Below, piece after piece: positions 54,818-64,000 of a DNA stretch of 64,000 nt. Origin of the DNA: Cupriavidus basilensis. GTDB taxonomy: Bacteria; Pseudomonadota; Gammaproteobacteria; Burkholderiales; Burkholderiaceae. The translations under genes were made by a program, and so were the position numbers. The notes beneath the pieces are model-generated. The model saw only the letters and a program-made list of their open reading frames with translations, made no database searches and was not told the origin of the DNA. Positions within the stretch are counted from its first letter, which is position 1, and the number at the start of each line of letters is the position of its first letter. Location: assembly GCF_000832305.1 (NCBI RefSeq), contig NZ_CP010536.1, positions 2,666,001-2,730,000 on the forward strand, given 5' to 3'.

Positions 54818-55315
54818 ATGTTGATGCGAGACGCAATCCCCCATGTGCTTAGCCGCGGTAGCGACATGTTCACGCGAGACATACAGGAGACGCCCCCGCA
54901 AAAGACGTTCCATCATGCAATCGATATCTATCTCAAGGATTCCAACGCCTTCATGAATACTTACTTTGCGCGCTACTTCGAGTGGCAGGGTGTCTGCCGG
55001 GAACGCTGGTTCCACGAGTGCATTCACGACAACCTGCTGGCTGCCGGAGGCGTGTTCGTGACCAAGCGCGCGCATCAGGAGTACGTGGAAGAGACCTTCC
55101 CGTTCCAGAAGGTGGACTGCTACCTCAATACCTTCCAGGTGAAGCAGTGCTCGGCTTACCTGCTGTTCCGCTTTTGCGTTGGAGGCCGCCCCGTGTCGCT
55201 CGGCTACCAGCAGATCGTGTTCGCCGGCAGGGACAAGCGCATCATGCGCTTCCCGAAGGAGATCGTGGAGCGCGTCAAGGAGTATGAGTTGAAGTTGCCT
55301 ACCTTCGCTAGCTAA
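54818..55315 (+). CDS. Hot-dog acyl-CoA thioesterase-like protein
   Basis: 165 residues from ATG 54818 (AGGAG seven bases before). It resembles the 4HBT/YbgC thioesterases. The fold starts at TFHHAIDIYLKDSNAFMNTY and goes on with FARYFEWQGVCRERWFHECI, with the expected Asp replaced by the KDSNAF turn. The C-terminal strands VKQCSAYLLFRFCVGGRPVS and GYQQIVFAGRDKRIM complete the sheet. The last 4 bp overlap the end of the convergent histidine kinase gene. The substrate is unknown; a fatty acyl chain is plausible. Confidence 0.75.
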   Translation: MLMRDAIPHVLSRGSDMFTRDIQETPPQKTFHHAIDIYLKDSNAFMNTYFARYFEWQGVCRERWFHECIHDNLLAAGGVFVTKRAHQEYVEETFPFQKVDCYLNTFQVKQCSAYLLFRFCVGGRPVSLGYQQIVFAGRDKRIMRFPKEIVERVKEYELKLPTFAS

Positions 55316-56760
55316 ACGGGCCCCGCCCCGCTGGCCGGCACTTGGCTGGCGGGGCGGGCACGCATGACACGGCCTTTGCCGGTGTGCGCGTCCGGCAGGC
55401 GCAGCGTGAAGGTGGTATGGACGCCACGCACGGATTCGCATTGGATGCGGCCATCGAACGCCTCGACCACGCGCCGGCAGAAGGCCAGCCCCATGCCAGC
55501 GCCGCTGCCGTGGGCCTTGGTGGAAAAGAAGGGATCGAAGATCCGCGGGAGGACTTCCCGCGCGATGCCGGGGCCGGTATCGCTGAAGCGAAGCAGCCAG
55601 CAGCCGCGTTCTTGCACCACTCCGATCTCGATGCGGCCGTCGACGCTCGCACGCATGGCCTGCAGTGCGTTCTTGAGCAGGTTGAACAGCACGTAGACCA
55701 GCAGCGTGTCGGAGCCCCGGAAGCACCAGGCCGGATCAATCGGGCCTACCGCCACCCTTTCCCGCTCCCCCGCCAGGAACGGATAGCGCTCGAGAGCGGA
55801 CACCACGCAGTGCCGCAGGGATTGTGCGGTGAAGCTATGGCGGTCCAGCCGTTCCAGCGTGACGGAGGCAAGCGCCATGTCGATCACGGTGTGGGTGCCA
55901 TCAATCTCCCGTTGAATGGAGGCGACCAGGCCGGCGGCCCGGTTCAGTTGCCCGGGCCGCATGCTGTCCTTGCACAAACCGTGCTCCACCGCCAGTTGAT
56001 AGCCGGCCAGCAGATCGGGCCAGGCTCGGCCGATTTCGTCGGCCTGCAGGCGGATCGTGGTCAAGGGGGTGCGCACCTCGTGCGCCACGGTAGCCGCCAG
56101 CGAGAAGGGGTGCATCAAGTCGTAGCGCACGATGGTCACCGCAAGAATGCCCAGGCTGATGCCGATAAAGATCACGCCCGGCGGATAAAAGGCATAGCCG
56201 TAATTGGCCGCGTAGTCGACCGCCGCCAGCGAGTAAAGGCACAGGCTCACCAGGCACAGATCCAGACGCTTGCGCTTCTCGCCCGTGGCGCTGCGGCGCG
56301 CGCCCAGTAGCAGCCAGCCGCTGCGGCAGGCCAGCAGCACCGTCTGCGCCACATGCAGCGGATGCAGCCGCCCGGCCTTGGGGTACTCACCGAAGAAATA
56401 GGTATAGAAGCCGGACACCACCTCACCGCCAGTCAACACCATCACCGCCAGCACCAGGGACAGCCCGTAGGAAACCAGCAGCAGCGGGCGCTCGGTGCGG
56501 CACTCGGTGACCTCGGTCACGAAGTGATAGAAACAGGTCGGCAGGAAGATGATGAACAGATAGCCCACCTTGGCGAGCAGCAGCGCCACATCCGGCTGCT
56601 CAGCCTGGAACAGGAAGGCCCAGGTTCCCTGCCAGGCAAAGGTGGTCACGCACATCAGAAAGAAGGACGTGGAAATGCGCGTGACGCCCTTGGTGACCAG
56701 CACGTACAAGCCGAATCCCAGAAAAATGGCGGACACGAAGGCTGGCAGGATGGCGTACAT
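55312..56760 (-). CDS. 7TM sensor histidine kinase, CqsS/LqsS/PhcS-like
   Basis: 482 residues. About seven hydrophobic helices (1-215) form the sensor. The H-box is AATVAHEVRTPLTTIRLQAD, then HTVIDMALASV. The ATPase part has an N-box VLFNLLKNALQAM, DTGPGI, DPFFSTKAHGSGAGMGLAF. The stretch FRGSDTLLVYVLFNLLKNAL and the ERYPF motif before it recall kinases for long-chain hydroxyketone or hydroxy-ester autoinducers. No receiver domain or response regulator is present here, so it is an orphan. The next gene is a convergent thioesterase. Confidence 0.82.
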   Translation of the reverse strand: MYAILPAFVSAIFLGFGLYVLVTKGVTRISTSFFLMCVTTFAWQGTWAFLFQAEQPDVALLLAKVGYLFIIFLPTCFYHFVTEVTECRTERPLLLVSYGLSLVLAVMVLTGGEVVSGFYTYFFGEYPKAGRLHPLHVAQTVLLACRSGWLLLGARRSATGEKRKRLDLCLVSLCLYSLAAVDYAANYGYAFYPPGVIFIGISLGILAVTIVRYDLMHPFSLAATVAHEVRTPLTTIRLQADEIGRAWPDLLAGYQLAVEHGLCKDSMRPGQLNRAAGLVASIQREIDGTHTVIDMALASVTLERLDRHSFTAQSLRHCVVSALERYPFLAGERERVAVGPIDPAWCFRGSDTLLVYVLFNLLKNALQAMRASVDGRIEIGVVQERGCWLLRFSDTGPGIAREVLPRIFDPFFSTKAHGSGAGMGLAFCRRVVEAFDGRIQCESVRGVHTTFTLRLPDAHTGKGRVMRARPASQVPASGAGPV

Positions 56761-57499: not shown

Positions 57500-57976
57500 C
57501 TAGGCGGCACGGGCACCGAAGTGCGCGCCCTTGAACTCGGTTTCGAGAAATGCCCTGAGCAGGTTGGCGACGGCCTGCACAGCCATGGAGGGGTGGTGCA
57601 GGCAGGCTTCCACTTGCTCGCTGCGGCCTTCGCCAAGCAGGCACCAAGTGCAGAAATGCTCGCAATTGTTGGTCAGGAGCCGGTAGTTGTCCTCACCGAG
57701 GCGGGAGCGGGCGCGCGCCACGGCTTCCAGGCCGACATACCTGGCGCAAGGATTGGCCTTCACGGTGACTGTGTGGCCTGCCGCGAAAGCGCCCACCGTG
57801 GTTTCCTCCACAGGGCCGCGATGGAGCGAGCCGGCAAAGCCGGCGTAGTGGACGACCTTGCCGTCGCCAATGTAAATGCCGTGATGGGCATAGCCGCGGC
57901 GTTCCGTGACCAGGTGCGCGCCCAGGGGAAGGTCGGCATCGATAGCCTTGTCTTGTTGTTGGTGTTGGTGGTTCAT
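57500..57976 (-). CDS. LRAT/NlpC-P60-superfamily acyltransferase-like protein
   Basis: 158 residues from ATG 57976. It has the permuted-papain LRAT-domain triad: His in YAHHGIYIGDGKVVHYAG (two His), and Cys in NNCEHFCTWCLLGEG. Eukaryotic members transfer acyl chains from phospholipids; bacterial ones are largely untested. The first 15 residues are Gln/His-rich. The C-terminus (MAVQAVANLLRAFLETEF) is amphipathic and could touch membrane. Heads a minus-strand group with two small genes. Confidence 0.85.
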   Translation of the reverse strand: MNHQHQQQDKAIDADLPLGAHLVTERRGYAHHGIYIGDGKVVHYAGFAGSLHRGPVEETTVGAFAAGHTVTVKANPCARYVGLEAVARARSRLGEDNYRLLTNNCEHFCTWCLLGEGRSEQVEACLHHPSMAVQAVANLLRAFLETEFKGAHFGARAA

Positions 57977-58533
57977 GGCTGCCTCTGATCTGTTTGCTAT
58001 CTGTTTGCTGGCTGCAGGCATTGCCTGCTGGTTGCCATACCGTCCGCATCAACCGTGCCACCCGGCGCCATCCCAGGCAGATCAGGGGATTGCGGAGCTT
58101 TCAACCGGACAGGCAGGGGATAAGCGTCTGCGGCCAGCCAACAGCCTGATGCCAATAGTGTTGGTGCCATGCCATCAGAGAGGCCCCGATGCCGTGGAAG
58201 CCATGGCGAAGTGGATGCGATGGCCGCGGCAGTGCTCTATGGCGCGACTTCGCGCGAGACAGCTGCCGGGCGGCGAGCCCGAGTCAAATCGGTGGGTTTC
58301 CCCCACCATGCCGGCAGAGGATGTTGGCGTTGCGCCAACGCTCACGGCCCCGCCGCGAAGTCCGAGATCAGCCTGGCGTCGCCAACGAGGAGGGGAAACA
58401 CAGAAAATTCAAGCACTTACGGCACCGCATCGGGCCAGCCGCATCACTGGCATGCGCTTTGCTCTATAGAAGCATGGCAAGTAGCCACGGACCGCAACAC
58501 AGCCCCTACTCATCCCACGCACCGGAGACCATC
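57977..58533. other. Regulatory gap before the secreted-peptide gene
   Basis: About 560 bp without a gene. Frames open here are shadows of random GC-rich sequence. It holds the sigma-54 promoter at 58448-58463. Activator sites are expected 100-200 bp upstream of that, but no clear dyad was identified by eye. Confidence 0.6.
58448..58463 (+). promoter_or_regulatory. Sigma-54 promoter of the peptide gene
   Basis: TGGCATGCGCTTTGCT matches TGGCAY-N5-TTGCW exactly. The GG (58449-58450) and GC (58461-58462) doublets are 12 bases apart, as -24/-12 elements must be. Start of transcription would be near 58474, 60 bp before the peptide ATG. A sigma-54 activator gene lies 1.2 kb away. Confidence 0.8.
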
Positions 58534-58821
58534 ATGGCGGCGCTCACCATCAAAGACCTCTACACCAACCGCACGCTGGACGGCCAGGCCATGGCGGCCA
58601 TCCGCGGCGGCGGCGCGCCCTGGGTATTCGGCTGGATCCAGCCCTATTCCCCGCCCCGGCAGAGCGTTGGGCCCGTCGTCAACTTTTACGAGATCAACAA
58701 CAGCTTCTATGCTGATCAGATGGTTAACCAGTTCCAGAACATCGACGTTCGCAATACGGCGCCCGGCGCGAACATCAATGTGCAAGCGGGACAAGGGGCA
58801 AGGAACGACGGCCGGATGTAG
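58534..58821 (+). CDS. Double-glycine-leader secreted peptide precursor
   Basis: 95 residues from ATG 58534 (GGAG upstream). The leader ends TLDGQAMAAIRGG at residue 26, with Leu at -12, Met at -7, Ile at -4 and Gly-Gly at -2/-1, the exact pattern cut by C39 peptidases of bacteriocin exporters. The predicted core is 69 residues: GAPWVFGWIQPYSPPRQSVG, then an Asn/Gln-rich part (NNSFYADQMVNQFQNIDV, NTAPGANINVQAGQ) and no Cys. A matching peptidase-transporter is 2.3 kb away. Function (toxin, signal or surface polymer) is unknown. Confidence 0.8.
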   Translation: MAALTIKDLYTNRTLDGQAMAAIRGGGAPWVFGWIQPYSPPRQSVGPVVNFYEINNSFYADQMVNQFQNIDVRNTAPGANINVQAGQGARNDGRM

Positions 58822-58865
58822 CCCGGTTCGCGCACAGCCCGAACGGCCCGGCCATGCGCCGCCCG

Positions 58866-58896
58866 CCACGCCAACGCCACCCAGGCGCTGGCGTGG
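58866..58896 (+). terminator. Intercistronic hairpin
   Basis: CCACGCCAACGCC, five bases, GGCGCTGGCGTGG: a 13-bp stem with one mismatch and no T-run, between the peptide gene and the phosphatase gene. It may stabilise the peptide mRNA or partly stop transcription. Confidence 0.45.
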
Positions 58897-58930
58897 CATT
58901 GCGGCGTCCAAGCTTGCCCGAACACCGGAG

Positions 58931-59707
58931 ATGATCGTGACCTGTGCATCGCAATTCCGCTGGACTTCAGCCGCTCGCACCGATGTCGGCCTGGTACGGG
59001 AGCGCAATGAGGATGCCTGCCTCGCCCAGCCGGAGCGAGGGCTCTGGGTGGTGGCGGATGGCATGGGCGGCCACGCGGTTGGCGACTATGCCAGCAATAT
59101 GGTCGTGGAGACGCTGTCCCGGCTGGCCTTGCCGCACAGCCTCGATAGCTTGCTCGACGGGGCCCGCATCGCCTTGCAGGAAGTCAATCGCGAACTGCTG
59201 GAGGAAGCGGCACGCCGGCAGGTCCGGCGCATTGGCAGCACGGTGGTAGTGCTGATGGCCTGCGAACGCTTCTGTGGCTGCCTGTGGGCAGGCGACAGCC
59301 GCATCTACTTGTACCGGGATGCGCACCTGACCCAGTTGACGAGGGACCACAGCCGCGTGGAAGAACTCAAGGCGCGCGGTCTGATCACCGCGGAAGAAGC
59401 CGTGCATCACCCAGCGCACAACACCATCACCCGGGCGGTCGGCGCGAACACGGCGCTGGAACTGGACCAGACCTGGGTGGAAGTCGCGGACGCCGACATG
59501 TTCCTGCTCTGCAGCGACGGCCTGAGCAATGAACTGCGGGACCCGGAGATCGCCAGCGTGCTGGCCTGCGGCGATTGCGAACTGGCGGCGCAGGCGCTGG
59601 TGACCGCGGCGCTGGGCCGCGGCGGCCACGACAACATCTCGGCGGTGGTGGTGCGCGCGGAGGATCTCTACGCCTCGGACAAGACCATGGTGAATCCCGC
59701 GCTGTAG
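58931..59707 (+). CDS. PP2C-type Ser/Thr phosphatase
   Basis: 258 residues. Metal-binding and catalytic motifs of PPM phosphatases appear in order: DVGLVRERNEDACLA, VVADGMGGHAVGDYA, GSTVVVLM, WAGDSRIYLYR, LCSDGLSNELRDPE and GRGGHDNISAVVV. It has no signal peptide or membrane helix. ATG 58931 directly abuts GGAG, so GTG 58937, six bases after it, may be the true start. It is probably read from the sigma-54 promoter with the peptide gene. No Ser/Thr kinase is in the window, so its target is open. Confidence 0.93.
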   Translation: MIVTCASQFRWTSAARTDVGLVRERNEDACLAQPERGLWVVADGMGGHAVGDYASNMVVETLSRLALPHSLDSLLDGARIALQEVNRELLEEAARRQVRRIGSTVVVLMACERFCGCLWAGDSRIYLYRDAHLTQLTRDHSRVEELKARGLITAEEAVHHPAHNTITRAVGANTALELDQTWVEVADADMFLLCSDGLSNELRDPEIASVLACGDCELAAQALVTAALGRGGHDNISAVVVRAEDLYASDKTMVNPAL

Positions 59708-59735
59708 CCTGGCGTGCGGCTCACCGCCTGCCCTC

Positions 59736-61043
59736 CTACCGCGCCTTGCCGCCCTGCGCGGCGCCCTGATTGCGAAAATCCTTGGAATGGATGCCGTGTT
59801 TCTTCAGGAGCATCTGCAGGTGCGAGCGATTCATGTCGAAGCGCCTGGCCAGCTCCGCCACCGTGCCGCCGACCTCCTGCAATCCCCGCTCGAGAAAAGC
59901 GCGTTCGGCTTCATCGCTGGCGGCGCGCTTGGCTTCGCTGAGCGAGGTGGCCGTGGACGCATCCACCACGAGCGGTGCCGCGGCGCCGCTGGTGACTGGC
60001 GCCGGAGCTGATGGCTTGGGCCGCAGGTCCTGTGGAAGATGCTCGAGATCAGCCGTATCGCCAGCCAGGCACGAGGTACGGTACATCAGGTTACGCAATT
60101 CGCGGATATTGCCCGGGTAGGCGTAATTCATCAGGAAGTCGCGCAGGCGCGGGGTCAGCTTGACGGGCCGGCGCTTTAGCGCGCCGGCCGCCTCGTCGCC
60201 GAAGTACGCTACCAGCAAGGCGATTTCGTCGCGCCGCTCGCGCAGCGGCGGCAGCGTGACGTGGATCACGCTGAGGCGGTAGAACAAGTCTTCGCGAAAC
60301 TTGCCCTCCTCACTCAGGCGCCGCAGGTCCCGGTTGGTGGCCGCCACGATGCGCGTGTCGACCGAAATCGTCTCGTCGGAGCCGACCCGCTGGATCTCGT
60401 GCGACTCCAGCACGCGCAGCAGCTTGACCTGCCCGGTGAGAGGCAACTCGCCAATCTCATCAAGGAAGATGGTGCCCGTGTGCGCGCTCTCGAACTTGCC
60501 GCGGCGATCATTGGCGGCGCCCGTGAAGGCGCCCTTCTTGTGGCCGAACAACTCCGACTCCAGCAGATTCTCAGGGATGGCCCCGCAGTTCACCGAGATA
60601 TAGGGCTTGTCCGTCCTGGAGCCGTTGGCATGGATCACCTTGGCCATCAGCTCCTTGCCCGTGCCGCTCTCGCCATCGATCAACACCGGCAGATCAGTGG
60701 GCGCCGCTTTCTCGGCGATCTCCAGCGCCTCCAGCAGCTTGGGATTGTCGCCGAAGGTGCCCTCAAAAATAAAGCTGCGTTCCAGCAACGCCTGCCGGCG
60801 CTCGCGCGGTGCCAGGTCGGCCGGAACAGGCTCCGCCACGGCCGCCTGCACAAAGCGCTCCTTGTGCGATAGCTGCATCACCTCGTCGCGCAGCGTAGTG
60901 GCCTGCTTGAGCAGCTTCTCGATCTCCGTGCGCTCGAGCTTGGAGGCCCAGCGCAACGTCGAGCGCAGGATTTCGATCTTCTCGATCAGCCCGGCATAGG
61001 AGATGGCCGACCCGACGGAGCCACCCTGGTTGAACAGCTTCAT
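59736..61043 (-). CDS. Sigma-54-dependent activator (AAA+/Fis)
   Basis: 435 residues from ATG 61043 (GGGGGAG six bases before). Residues 1-105 are charged and helical (LIEKIEILRSTLRWASKLER, KLLKQATTLRDEV), with no receiver, PAS, GAF or FHA signature. The AAA+ domain (about 110-345) has GESGTGKE, the sigma-54-contacting GAFTGA loop, Walker B GTIFLDEIGE and the Arg-rich LPPLRERRDEI. A Pro/Ala linker leads to a Fis-type HTH (GGTVAELARRFDMNRSHLQ). It ends 28 bp from the convergent phosphatase gene and follows the exporter gene by 94 bp. Confidence 0.95.
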   Translation of the reverse strand: MKLFNQGGSVGSAISYAGLIEKIEILRSTLRWASKLERTEIEKLLKQATTLRDEVMQLSHKERFVQAAVAEPVPADLAPRERRQALLERSFIFEGTFGDNPKLLEALEIAEKAAPTDLPVLIDGESGTGKELMAKVIHANGSRTDKPYISVNCGAIPENLLESELFGHKKGAFTGAANDRRGKFESAHTGTIFLDEIGELPLTGQVKLLRVLESHEIQRVGSDETISVDTRIVAATNRDLRRLSEEGKFREDLFYRLSVIHVTLPPLRERRDEIALLVAYFGDEAAGALKRRPVKLTPRLRDFLMNYAYPGNIRELRNLMYRTSCLAGDTADLEHLPQDLRPKPSAPAPVTSGAAAPLVVDASTATSLSEAKRAASDEAERAFLERGLQEVGGTVAELARRFDMNRSHLQMLLKKHGIHSKDFRNQGAAQGGKAR

Positions 61044-61137
61044 GTCGCGCTCCCCCATGCGTCGCGATACGGCAGATATGCCAGAAGCGCCAGATGCGCC
61101 GTTGCCGCCCAGCGGCACCCGGGCTGTGCGAAAGCGC

Positions 61138-64000
61138 TCACTCCGAGCTCAGCTGCTTCTGCACCAGCTGGTAGTACATGCCCTTGCGCTCCAGCAGCTC
61201 CTCATGCCGCCCTTGCTCGACGATGGCCCCTTCGTACAGCACCAGGATCTTGTCCGCGCGCATGATGGTGCTCAGGCGGTGCGCGATGATCACGGCCGTG
61301 CGGCCCTGCAAGATCTCCTGCATGTTGCCAAGGATATTGCTCTCCGATTGCGTGTCCAGCGCCGAGGTTGCCTCATCGAAAACCAGCAGGCGCGGATCGT
61401 GATAAAGCGCGCGGGCAATGCACAGGCGCTGGATCTGCCCGCCGGACAAACCCACGCCGCGCTCGCCCACCACCTGCTCGTAACCCAGGGGCAGCTTGCT
61501 GATGAACGCGTGGGCGTCGGCCATCTTGGCGACTTCCTCGATATGGCGGCGATCCGGGCTGTCGTCGCCGCAGGCAATGTTCTCGGCGATGGTGCCCGAG
61601 AACAGCAGGTTGCTCTGCATCACGTAGCCGATCTGCGCGCGGTAATACTCCTTATCGATCACGCCGAGGTCGTAGCCGTCCACGGTGATCTTGCCCTCCG
61701 TGGGCACGTAGAACCCCACCAGCATCTTGGCCAGCGTGGTCTTGCCCGATCCGCTGCGTCCCACGATGGCCAGCAATTCGCCGGGCTTGATGCTGAAGCT
61801 GATGTTCTCCAGCACGTAGGGCGTTTCGGCGCCGCCGTAGCGGAAATAGACGCCGTCCAGGTTGATCTCGCCTTGCAGGTCCGGCAGCATCACGCGCGAT
61901 GCCAGATCCTGCGGCTTTTGCTCCGGATCGAGGTCCAGCACGTCGCCCAGGCGCTCCATCGCCACGCCGGCATCGTTGAGCTGGCCCCACAATGCCACCA
62001 GCCCCATCAAAGGCGCTAGCACGCTGCCCATGAAAGCGTTGAACGCAATGAGCTGGCCAACGGTCAGCTCGCGCTGCAGCACCAGGTTCGCACCGACCCA
62101 TAGCACCGCGATGGTGGTCGCGGCATTGAGCAACTGGCTGGCCAGCCCAACCAGGATATGGAACGCCTGCGCCCGGTACTGGACCTCCAGCGCCTTGGCG
62201 TATTTCTTCTCCCACTTCAGGCGCACCGGACGCTCGATTCCCATGCCCTTGACCGTTTCCACCCCGCCCAGCGCCTCCATCAGGTAGGACCGCGCATCGG
62301 TCGTGGTGGTGAACACCTCGCGCGCGAAAGCCTTGACCTTTGGCGTTGCCACGATCGTCAGGATCGCGATCGGGATCACGAAGGCGATCAGCACCAGCGT
62401 CATCTTGACGTTGTAAAGGAACATGATGGTGAAGTAGATAAACACCATCAGCAGGTTGAGCGCCGTCGTCACCGTGGACTCGGTCAGGAAGGCGCGGATA
62501 GTCTGGTTCTCCTGGAAACGCGCAAAGATGTCGCCCGTCTTGCGCTTGGCAAAGAAGGAAAATGGCAGCGACAAGGTGTGCTTGAAGAAGTGCGACATCA
62601 TGGCGAAGTCCATATTGCGCACCATGAAATTGGCGAGATACGCCCGCACCGAACTCATCAGTTGCGAAAACACACTGGAAACGATCAACCCAAGTATCAG
62701 CAGGTTCAGCAGGCCCATGTTCTGGTGCACGACCACCCCGTCAAGGATGTTCTGGATGATCAGGGGCGGCACCACGCCCAGCACCTGGATCACGAAGGTC
62801 GCCATGAACAGGTGCGCAAGGATCCGTTTGTACGGTGCCAGGTAGCCGATGAAGCGCAGCCAGGGCGAGCGTGCCACCGCCAGTTGCGCCATGCTTTCGC
62901 CGGAGGTGAAAAGCAGGCAGGTGCCGCTCCACCCGCGCTCGAACTCCTCCACGCCCATCTTGCGAAAGCCCAGGGCCGGGTCGGCCACCCACACCCAGCG
63001 CTTCGATACACCGTAGACCACCACGTAGTGGTAGCCCTCCCAGTGCACGATGAACGGCAGCTCGAAACCCAGCAGGGAATCATGCGTGCACTGCACGCCG
63101 CGCGTGGTAAAGCCGAGCGACTCGCCGGCGCGCGCCAGGCTGTCCAGCGTGGCGCCCTGCGTGGTCACGTTGGCCAGCTCGCGCAGCTTGCCGAGCGTCA
63201 TGGAGATGCCGTGATGGCGGCAGATCATCGCCAGGCAGGCAGCGCCGCAATCCATCTCCTCGGCCTGCTCGACCAGAGCGAAGCGGCGGATAACGCGTTC
63301 GCCGAACTCCGGCTTCGAGCGCAGATCGAGCATCACCGGATGCTTGCGCCGCTCGGCCATCCGCTTTTGCCGATGCAGTTCCCTGTCGATAAAACGTATG
63401 CGCTCCTCCAGCACCTCGCGCAGCTTGGGATTGCGCTCCAGGATCAGCTGCACGGTCTTCTCCGGAATCACCAGCAGCCGCGCATCCGTGCCGGCGATGG
63501 CCGACGCAATCTGCTCCTGTCGCATCACGCAGGCGCGCTCGCCAAAGATATCGCCCTGGCGCAAGGTCGCCAACGGATACTCGACTCCCTCCTCGGTGCG
63601 CACAATGCGCACTTCGCCCTGGCGCACCACGTACAGGCGGCGATCCTCCCGTGCATCCTGCTTCAGGATTTCCTTGCCGGCGGACACGCGCTTTACCCCC
63701 ACGCTGCGCACGGCCTCCTCCAGCTCACTCTTGTCGAGCTTGCCACGCAGGTCGAACAAGCGGGCGACAAAGCCGCCGGCCGACCCGATCGCCACATAGC
63801 TGGCAACAAAAGCCATCGCCGCCGGATTTTGCGCAATCATGGGTTCGGTCGCACTGCGCGGAATAAAGAGCAGCTCAGTCTTGGCGGACGAACGCACCGA
63901 GGATTCATGCCGGTACTCGCGCAGCATGGCGATGTCGGCAAACACCTCGCGCGCCTTGCGCACGCCAAGGCTGACTTCCTTGCCATTGTCCTCGTTGAAG
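61138..64000 (-). CDS. C39-peptidase ABC exporter with cNMP-binding domains, partial
   Basis: The frame is open through the right edge, so the N-terminus is missing; about 954 residues are seen. Order: the tail of a first cyclic-nucleotide-binding-like domain (VFADIAMLREYRHESSVRSS, ELLFIPR), a second such domain (ILKQDAREDRRLYVVRQGEV, FGERACVMRQEQ), a C39 peptidase (Cys in AEEMDCGAACLAMICRHHG, His in HWEGYHYVVVYGV, Asp in VADPALGF), six membrane helices, then the ABC domain (GRSGSGKTTL, LSGGQIQRLCIARAL, LLVFDEATSALD). It should cut double-glycine leaders and export the peptide. A periplasmic adaptor gene would be expected beyond the edge. Confidence 0.95.
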   Translation of the reverse strand, partial: FNEDNGKEVSLGVRKAREVFADIAMLREYRHESSVRSSAKTELLFIPRSATEPMIAQNPAAMAFVASYVAIGSAGGFVARLFDLRGKLDKSELEEAVRSVGVKRVSAGKEILKQDAREDRRLYVVRQGEVRIVRTEEGVEYPLATLRQGDIFGERACVMRQEQIASAIAGTDARLLVIPEKTVQLILERNPKLREVLEERIRFIDRELHRQKRMAERRKHPVMLDLRSKPEFGERVIRRFALVEQAEEMDCGAACLAMICRHHGISMTLGKLRELANVTTQGATLDSLARAGESLGFTTRGVQCTHDSLLGFELPFIVHWEGYHYVVVYGVSKRWVWVADPALGFRKMGVEEFERGWSGTCLLFTSGESMAQLAVARSPWLRFIGYLAPYKRILAHLFMATFVIQVLGVVPPLIIQNILDGVVVHQNMGLLNLLILGLIVSSVFSQLMSSVRAYLANFMVRNMDFAMMSHFFKHTLSLPFSFFAKRKTGDIFARFQENQTIRAFLTESTVTTALNLLMVFIYFTIMFLYNVKMTLVLIAFVIPIAILTIVATPKVKAFAREVFTTTTDARSYLMEALGGVETVKGMGIERPVRLKWEKKYAKALEVQYRAQAFHILVGLASQLLNAATTIAVLWVGANLVLQRELTVGQLIAFNAFMGSVLAPLMGLVALWGQLNDAGVAMERLGDVLDLDPEQKPQDLASRVMLPDLQGEINLDGVYFRYGGAETPYVLENISFSIKPGELLAIVGRSGSGKTTLAKMLVGFYVPTEGKITVDGYDLGVIDKEYYRAQIGYVMQSNLLFSGTIAENIACGDDSPDRRHIEEVAKMADAHAFISKLPLGYEQVVGERGVGLSGGQIQRLCIARALYHDPRLLVFDEATSALDTQSESNILGNMQEILQGRTAVIIAHRLSTIMRADKILVLYEGAIVEQGRHEELLERKGMYYQLVQKQLSSE

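Follow-up and report, generated by a model that had tools for sequence, protein, structure and literature searches.

A probable sigma-54-switched type I secretion locus for double-glycine-leader small proteins in Cupriavidus basilensis

Background

What does a peptidase-containing ABC transporter (PCAT) with two domains of the cyclic nucleoside monophosphate (cNMP) type export, and what controls it? This question is raised by a locus at one end of a 64-kb stretch of Cupriavidus basilensis DNA (bases 2666001-2730000 of contig 1; the genome has 8.42 Mb on two contigs), which is called here the window. In an initial annotation made from the sequence alone, a sigma-54 promoter, a gene for a peptide with a double-glycine (GG) leader, a PP2C phosphatase, a sigma-54 activator without known sensor and a C39 exporter with tandem cNMP-type domains had been recognized there, and all of them are present where they had been placed. 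The observation holds, but the locus is larger than had been supposed: the window cuts it short, the exporter and further genes run beyond its edge, and a gene of the LRAT family (lecithin retinol acyltransferase fold) lies on the left.

We propose that this locus encodes a type I secretion system (T1SS) that is switched on through sigma-54, is controlled by Thr phosphorylation and exports small, Asn-rich proteins with GG leaders, a reading to which we give a probability of about three in four. The whole conserved locus, of which the window probably holds one end, spans about 22 kb and would serve the production, maturation and export of this protein family.

Results

Organization of the locus and its precursor family

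What can be read directly in the DNA is a C39-ABC/HlyD/NodT export set, GG precursors, promoter sites, an upstream palindrome and a kinase/PP2C/FHA set (Table 1). To the right of the window edge, on the same strand, follow the remainder of the exporter, a PpiC-type peptidyl-prolyl isomerase (PPIase), an HlyD protein, a protein with two FHA domains and a NodT-type outer-membrane channel (outer-membrane factor, OMF), and after these come three tandem peptide B genes with a period of 316 bp and two DUF4399 proteins. Farther right lie a caspase/FGE protein and a Ser/Thr kinase, and then, on the opposite strand, two peptide B genes, one peptide C gene and one peptide D gene. An HlyD-like adaptor, a TolC-type channel and a Ser/Thr kinase had been named beforehand as the partners to look for on this side, and all three were found just right of the window.

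The peptide gene first noticed, here peptide A, turned out to be one of at least nine precursors in the genome, or ten with the weakly scoring peptide D. In a profile search, nine precursors scored well (E 1.6e-17 or better): two of them, a B and a C, lie on contig 2, and the linked region has the other seven, which are peptide A, five B genes and a single C; the peptide D gene scored weakly (E 3.5e-4) and one more place on contig 2 gave E 0.08. The precursors have in common a leader of about 26 aa, L.I.DL....LD..AM.A(V/I)RGG. When the profiles of peptides A and B were compared, 82 columns could be aligned, spanning both leader and core (E 3.4e-17); the leader by itself may account for much of this. 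Mean pairwise identity is 0.66 in the leader and 0.70 in the core of peptide A (45 sequences), and 0.71 and 0.37, respectively, in those of peptide B; a conserved leader joined to a variable peptide B core is what would be expected for one exporter with several cargoes. The ratio of nonsynonymous to synonymous substitution rates (dN/dS) was 0.02-0.26 in nine pairs of peptide A and 0.06-0.31 in eleven pairs of peptide B. Since the protein is conserved and its dN/dS is low, peptide A is a real gene.

The mature parts of A, B and C contain about 14% Asn and have low charge (Lys plus Arg 4.9% in peptide A and 3.4% in peptide B). Cys is absent from peptides A (64 sequences), C (7) and D (9) and present in 12 of 118 B sequences. 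Five precursors were scanned (one A, one B, two C and one D) and gave no Pfam match and no NCBIfam match above cut-off; peptide A had one match only, at E 0.2, among solved structures. Its single-chain AlphaFold model (mean pLDDT 41.5, pTM 0.22, no residue above 70) predicts no stable fold, which would speak neither for nor against assembly outside the cell.

Sigma-54 sites and a shared palindrome

The proposal that the peptide is under sigma-54 control is backed, at the level of sequence, by conserved promoter sites and by a palindrome shared among the upstream regions. The site TGGCATGCGCTTTGCT is the sole perfect match to TGGCAYN5TTGCW in the window, with 0.17 expected and at least one found in 16 of 100 shuffles; taken alone such a match would be weak, and its weight comes from the orthologous upstreams. 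Among 64 distinct peptide A upstreams, 62 carry a site with at most one mismatch (48 of them perfect), located 53-93 nt before the start codon, compared with a background of about 1% in shuffles and about 2% in random 250-nt windows of the same loci; after single-linkage clustering of similar upstreams the site is found in 45 of 47 clusters. The corresponding counts for peptide B are 74 of 117 upstreams, mostly 80-98 nt before the start, and 28 of 42 clusters. For the LRAT gene, 73 of the 84 distinct upstreams among orthologues match a slightly relaxed pattern with at most one mismatch, against about 2% of shuffles. In the C. basilensis genome, sites of sigma-54 type stand ahead of each of the four precursor units and of the LRAT gene. 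A chance match was rejected because of this conservation across orthologous upstreams, clustered counts included; a one-mismatch scan of the single locus was uninformative (6 sites found vs 8 expected).

The palindrome TGTTGG-N7-CCAACA was obtained from a search of the upstream regions. With at most 2 of 12 mismatches and at most 250 nt upstream of the -24 element, it occurs, in the upstreams from which it was derived, at all 61 promoters of peptide A and at 92 of the 97 of peptide B, compared with 1.5% and 1.3%, respectively, in shuffles. All four peptide units of the C. basilensis genome have it 126-128 nt upstream of -24. A composite pattern, TGTTGG-N(98-128)-TGGCAYN6TGC, has six matches genome-wide, four of which are the peptide units (one unlinked, on contig 2), and the reversed-pattern control has none; the other two matches showed no precursor by profile search and lie in or beside ordinary reading frames.

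Activator, phosphorylation set and exporter

The activator has the features of sigma-54 activators: PF00158 with its Walker A motif, and GAFTGA in 108 of 108 distinct orthologues. Among its Pfam matches at E<=0.01 there is neither a sensor family nor a helix-turn-helix family, and its C-terminus was aligned only via NorR/NifA models. Three further proteins compose the phosphorylation set. In the phosphatase the Asp residues of PP2C are kept in all aligned orthologues (100, 100 and 99), and the Ser/Arg/His residues of FHA are kept in both domains of the FHA protein (101/101). The kinase has HCD in place of the catalytic HRD in 25 of 25 distinct orthologues, which makes it a non-RD kinase, together with DFG in 26 of 26; a hydrophobic stretch was seen by eye. 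The suggestion that the phosphatase reverses a phosphorylation agrees with the presence of kinase, PP2C phosphatase and FHA protein in one locus, and from the same set we infer control by Thr phosphorylation.

The exporter is a PCAT, with PF03412, PF00664 and PF00005 all above cut-off; the C39 Cys/His/Asp residues are invariant in 108 of 108 distinct orthologues (as are, in the same count over the locus proteins, the Walker Lys and GAFTGA), and two PF00027 stretches at the N-terminus (cNMP_binding E 4.9e-34) place it with the HetC-type cNMP-PCATs. Other assignments were rejected. The exporter scores below cut-off as an HlyB-type T1SS (TIGR01846, 618.7 vs 725.6 bits) and as a peptide cleavage/export ABC transporter of the bacteriocin_ABC kind (TIGR01193, 487.6 vs 523.9 bits), and against an NHLM/NHLP export system stand the scores of exporter and HlyD, which fall below the curated cut-offs of TIGR03796 (552 vs 853 bits) and TIGR03794 (72 vs 156 bits), and a leader that is short where a long NHase- or Nif11-like one would be expected. 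The best NCBIfam match of the PPIase is TIGR04500 (peptide maturation, PpiC-related), at 97 bits below its cut-off of 180; its closest named relatives, among the best 80 of 224, are from C. basilensis strains, with up to 96% identity.

Conservation across genomes

The five genes first described do occur together in other genomes, both among 299 sampled genomes of the family and in fetched neighbourhoods. The carriers are soil bacteria akin to Cupriavidus and Paraburkholderia. An exporter orthologue with 75-100% identity is present in 104 of the 299 (partial in G242), the remaining matches among those listed having 39% identity or less. In an order-wide sample of 399 genomes three reached E 1e-160, all from the same family; a class sample of 369 genomes, at E 1e-150 or better, added two more orthologues, with 73% and 68% identity, and seven tandem-cNMP exporters of complete or almost complete length with 35-38%. 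Peptide A, by profile search, is found in 104 of the 299 genomes, that is in 103 of 104 with the exporter and in 1 of the 195 others. The kinase is found in 105, distributed as 103 of 104 and 2 of 195. Where exporter and kinase share a contig (82 genomes), they lie within 20 kb in 71 and at 100 kb to 1.05 Mb in 11; moreover, when the flanks of 20 genomes were extended, 18 proved to have the kinase at the locus, three of these showing just a portion of it, truncated at the edge of the stretch.

In 41 neighbourhoods (our own and 40 others) exporter and activator are present in all, and PPIase, HlyD, FHA and PP2C in 40 each; one of them (L058) begins at a contig end and another (L072) lacks peptide A and PP2C. 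Named loci were taken from the best 80 of 224 relatives, 71 having at least 9.5 kb on both sides; this set overlaps in part with the unnamed one, so that the two are not independent. All nine genes (peptide B, OMF, FHA, HlyD, PPIase, exporter, activator, PP2C and peptide A) are present in 60 of these 71 loci, 59 of them in one order, which is kept between genera. Strains that are tractable in the laboratory, such as Paraburkholderia xenovorans LB400 (L121), also carry the exporter.

Eight loci, L181-L188, represent more distant relatives, with exporter identities of 34-74%. Activator, PPIase, HlyD, FHA and OMF are kept in L181 and L182 (68-74%); within the stretches fetched for these two, whose contigs stop close to the side of peptide A, no GG peptide turned up. 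Activator, PPIase, HlyD and FHA recur in L187 and L188 and, joined by PP2C, in L185; L186 has the first two of these, and L183 and L184 show one partner each. In L187 (13664-18925) the locus adjoins a ShlB-type transporter, a LapD-type protein and an MBG-repeat protein, neighbours which, in this one locus, hint at adhesion or matrix.

Features of the locus and its flanks

The coordinates of the features are collected in Table 1. The LRAT gene is present in 90 of 145 fetched loci (duplicates and flank-only stretches counted), always on the strand opposite to peptide A (90/90), with a start-to-start distance of 326-652 nt. To its left, at 55312-56760, there is an apparent membrane histidine kinase gene, judged by eye. 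Peptide modification of FGE type by the linked caspase/FGE protein was considered and seems unlikely, nearly all mature parts being without Cys.

Table 1. Features in the window and to its right. Positions are window coordinates unless a stretch is named; stretch L004 extends the window rightward (window coordinate = L004 + 55999) and stretch L157 lies beyond L004.
Feature	Position	Strand	Evidence or remark
LRAT-family gene, divergent from peptide A	57500..57976	-	PF04970 E 2.4e-23
Sigma-54-type site TGGCACGGTTGATGCG of LRAT gene	58045..58060	-	<=1 mismatch (relaxed pattern), 73/84 upstreams
Copy of shared palindrome, positioned for LRAT promoter	58159..58177	.	1/12 mismatches
Shared palindrome TGTTGGCGTTGCGCCAACG, putative activator-binding site of peptide A promoter	58322..58340	.	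begins 126 nt upstream of -24 element
Sigma-54 -24/-12 promoter TGGCATGCGCTTTGCT of peptide A and, presumably, PP2C	58448..58463	+	pattern match and cross-genome conservation
Peptide A precursor, 95 aa, Asn-rich mature part	58534..58821	+	double-glycine leader 58534-58611
PP2C-type Ser/Thr phosphatase, 258 aa, metal-binding Asp kept	58931..59707	+	PF13672 E 3e-16
Sigma-54 activator (AAA+, GAFTGA)	59736..61118	-	PF00158 E 1.8e-70; probable start 61043
Exporter, 1019 aa: two cNMP-type, C39 peptidase, ABC membrane and ATPase domains	61138..64000	-	start at window-equivalent 64197
DUF4399 proteins	L157 2264-3174 region		family match; accompany locus
Caspase (C14) and FGE-sulfatase protein	L157 3450-5597		family match; accompanies locus
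Ser/Thr kinase	L157 5616-7793		PF00069 E 1.2e-39; DUF4384 at C-terminus

Discussion

Proposed mechanism

The model that we propose goes beyond what the sequence shows in its succession of steps, in the choice of the protein that is phosphorylated, in what the sensor responds to, in the ligand assigned to the cNMP-type domains and in the role given to the cargo. The kinase would sense the state of the cell envelope, its DUF4384-type part lying outside the cytoplasm, and would phosphorylate Thr on a protein of the locus. The FHA protein would read the phospho-Thr and PP2C, probably co-transcribed with peptide A, would erase it; the balance of the three would set the activity of the activator, of the exporter or of both. 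The activator would bind TGTTGG-N7-CCAACA and open the sigma-54 promoters and, as activator and exporter seem to lie in one operon under such a promoter, this would amount to positive feedback. The C39 domain would cut after GG, and the peptides would leave in one step via HlyD and NodT; the cNMP-type domains would probably act as a gate of the exporter, responding to a non-cyclic ligand or to contact with a protein.

Several observations weigh against this reading. Two of the 20 genomes with extended flanks (G132 and G160) keep the kinase 101 and 111 kb away, and one exporter genome (G296) is without peptide A, and without PP2C at its locus. Four Noviherbaspirillum/Herbaspirillum loci (L088, L094, L122 and L126, one of them from Herbaspirillum) lack HlyD, FHA and OMF in the fetched stretch, keeping PPIase, exporter and activator. 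On the side of transcription, the peptide B upstreams that carry the sigma-54 site with at most one mismatch number just 74 of 117, later tandem copies being without it and many Cupriavidus sites having two mismatches, and no site with at most one mismatch precedes peptides C (0/7) or D (0/9), so that these must be transcribed from upstream. The palindrome was derived from the very upstreams in which it was counted, which is no independent test (the A and B sets agree), and random windows of the same loci reach its mismatch limit in 3.8%; likewise the composite pattern was chosen after the sites of this genome had been seen, so that its matches are not an independent discovery. Finally, the argument for the cargo role comes from composition and from one distant relative locus beside a LapD and an MBG-repeat protein.

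Comparison with known systems

The separate parts of the locus are of known kinds; what would be new is their combination, the substrates and the phosphorylation set. Class II microcins are exported by T1SSs of the colicin V type, composed of a C39-ABC exporter, an HlyD-type adaptor and a TolC-type channel, from precursors with a GG leader. The present locus has the same precursor, exporter, adaptor and channel, and differs in its Asn-rich neutral cargo, in its presumed control by sigma-54 and Thr phosphorylation, and in the added PPIase and LRAT proteins. In type VI secretion, Thr phosphorylation is switched by PpkA-PppA-Fha, that is by a Ser/Thr kinase, a PP2C phosphatase and an FHA protein; the same set is found here with a type I peptide exporter, and no type VI protein is among the locus proteins scanned. 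If our reading is true, Ser/Thr phosphorylation control would be wired to a type I, not a type VI, secretion machine.

HetC of Nostoc PCC 7120 likewise has an N-terminal cNMP-type domain, C39 and ABC exporter in one chain, but it is described with one cNMP domain and with its substrate unknown, no GG-leader gene having been found near hetC (PMC10986499). The present locus has two cNMP domains, candidate substrates beside the exporter, kinase, phosphatase, FHA protein, sigma-54 activator, HlyD and channel; with likely substrates of a cNMP-PCAT in the same locus, the gating of such exporters becomes directly testable. NHLP/N11P systems are reported to share GG-type cleavage, HlyD and C39-ABC genes and several precursors, whereas their leaders average about 83 and 70 aa (PMC2887384), compared with about 26 aa here; unlike in those systems, no cyclodehydratase is among the locus proteins scanned. 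The Pseudomonas Fap amyloid also combines a C39 peptidase with Asn/Gln-rich secreted subunits, but its peptidase is described as Sec-exported and periplasmic, and is used together with the FapF pore (PMC5557850), whereas here C39 is part of the ABC exporter; the trait that the cargo here would share with amyloid subunits is its Asn-rich composition.

No description of the locus was found in full-text searches of the open-licence literature, most subscription papers lying outside it. The accessible text of the P. phymatum rpoN papers holds nothing on the locus, and a text search of a 2026 plant-microcin screen found no mention of Burkholderia, Paraburkholderia, Cupriavidus or Caballeronia.

Nature of the cargo

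Structural material of the surface or matrix is our guess at the role of the cargo and the likeliest one, at a little less than even odds. That the peptides are instead class II microcin-like bacteriocins, and the locus a weapon, we consider rather unlikely. The export set is that of class II microcins, the leaders are of GG type, and there are several diverging paralogues per genome; the core of peptide A is nevertheless conserved, with the identity given above, A and B have low positive charge, and inspection of the list of open reading frames found no immunity-gene candidate beside the precursors of this genome, an immunity role of the LRAT and DUF4399 proteins being nonetheless conceivable. 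In our judgement, it would be unusual for bacteriocin precursors to accompany a kinase with such constancy.

We give similarly limited credence to the view of the peptides as signals, addressed to sister cells or plants and comparable to GG-leader pheromones or to RaxX, which is reportedly an exported signal peptide of the RaxABC system. The cores are under purifying selection, a host target would need no receptor in the same locus, and PCATs are reported to export signal peptides elsewhere (HetC, PMC10986499); several precursor types of about 45-70 aa when mature, together with near-identical tandem copies, fit bulk material better in our judgement. A more specific form of the structural reading, which we offer as speculation, is that a kinase-phosphatase-FHA switch gates a sigma-54-driven type I exporter, and that the set of small Asn-rich proteins leaving through it builds a fibre or coat outside the cell. 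Such a structure would correspond to curli and Fap but be exported in one step by an ABC transporter; the cNMP tandem would be a phosphorylation- or alarmone-responsive gate, and the LRAT enzyme would modify (e.g. acylate) or anchor the cargo.

Gating of the exporter

The initial annotation had placed the exporter under nucleotide control, and gating by cAMP or cGMP through the tandem domains would be suggested by the family match of both domains to cNMP_binding and by their best sequence matches among solved structures, which are cGMP kinases. We find this improbable. In the register given by the alignment with cGMP kinases, the position of the phosphate-binding Arg is occupied by His97 in domain 1 (107 His and 1 Ser) and by Gln229 in domain 2 (108 of 108 distinct orthologues), and none of the 108 has an Arg at the adjacent positions 98 and 230; the Arg of the cAMP/cGMP type is thus missing from both exporter domains. 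R93 and R226 are invariant (108/108) and stand 4 and 3 residues before the expected position, which makes a displaced phosphate contact possible. A related cNMP-type domain of HetC has been reported to bind ppGpp and not cAMP (PMC10986499). Because of this report and of the Arg position without Arg in both domains, canonical cyclic-nucleotide control is disfavoured, and on sequence grounds we hold it doubtful.

That kinase, phosphatase, FHA protein and secretion genes are chance neighbours sharing a chromosomal region is hardly credible, since, although the kinase is unlinked or distant in part of the genomes, it accompanies the exporter even so (103/104 vs 2/195), gene order is kept between genera, and the co-occurrence of the exporter with peptide A and the kinase largely refutes this view.

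Further precursors and C39 peptidases

Two GG precursors of another core type were seen near the kinase in one genome (G016, L189 4141-4876), one with the leader IQDLDLTHELSDKAMSEVRGG and the other a relative of it, which suggests that further cargo families exist.

In the C. basilensis genome a gene for a FapD-like C39 peptidase, on contig 2 near 61 kb, adjoins two proteins with GG motifs (L005 5749-6252 and 6685-8196), in which KLDGIRGG, ERLQDLRGG and ERLDDLRGG are found, and a second FapD-like C39 peptidase lies on stretch L006. The target of FapD was called unclear in 2017, the Pseudomonas Fap proteins being described as without canonical C39 sequences (PMC5557850); the cluster on contig 2 may show what that target is.

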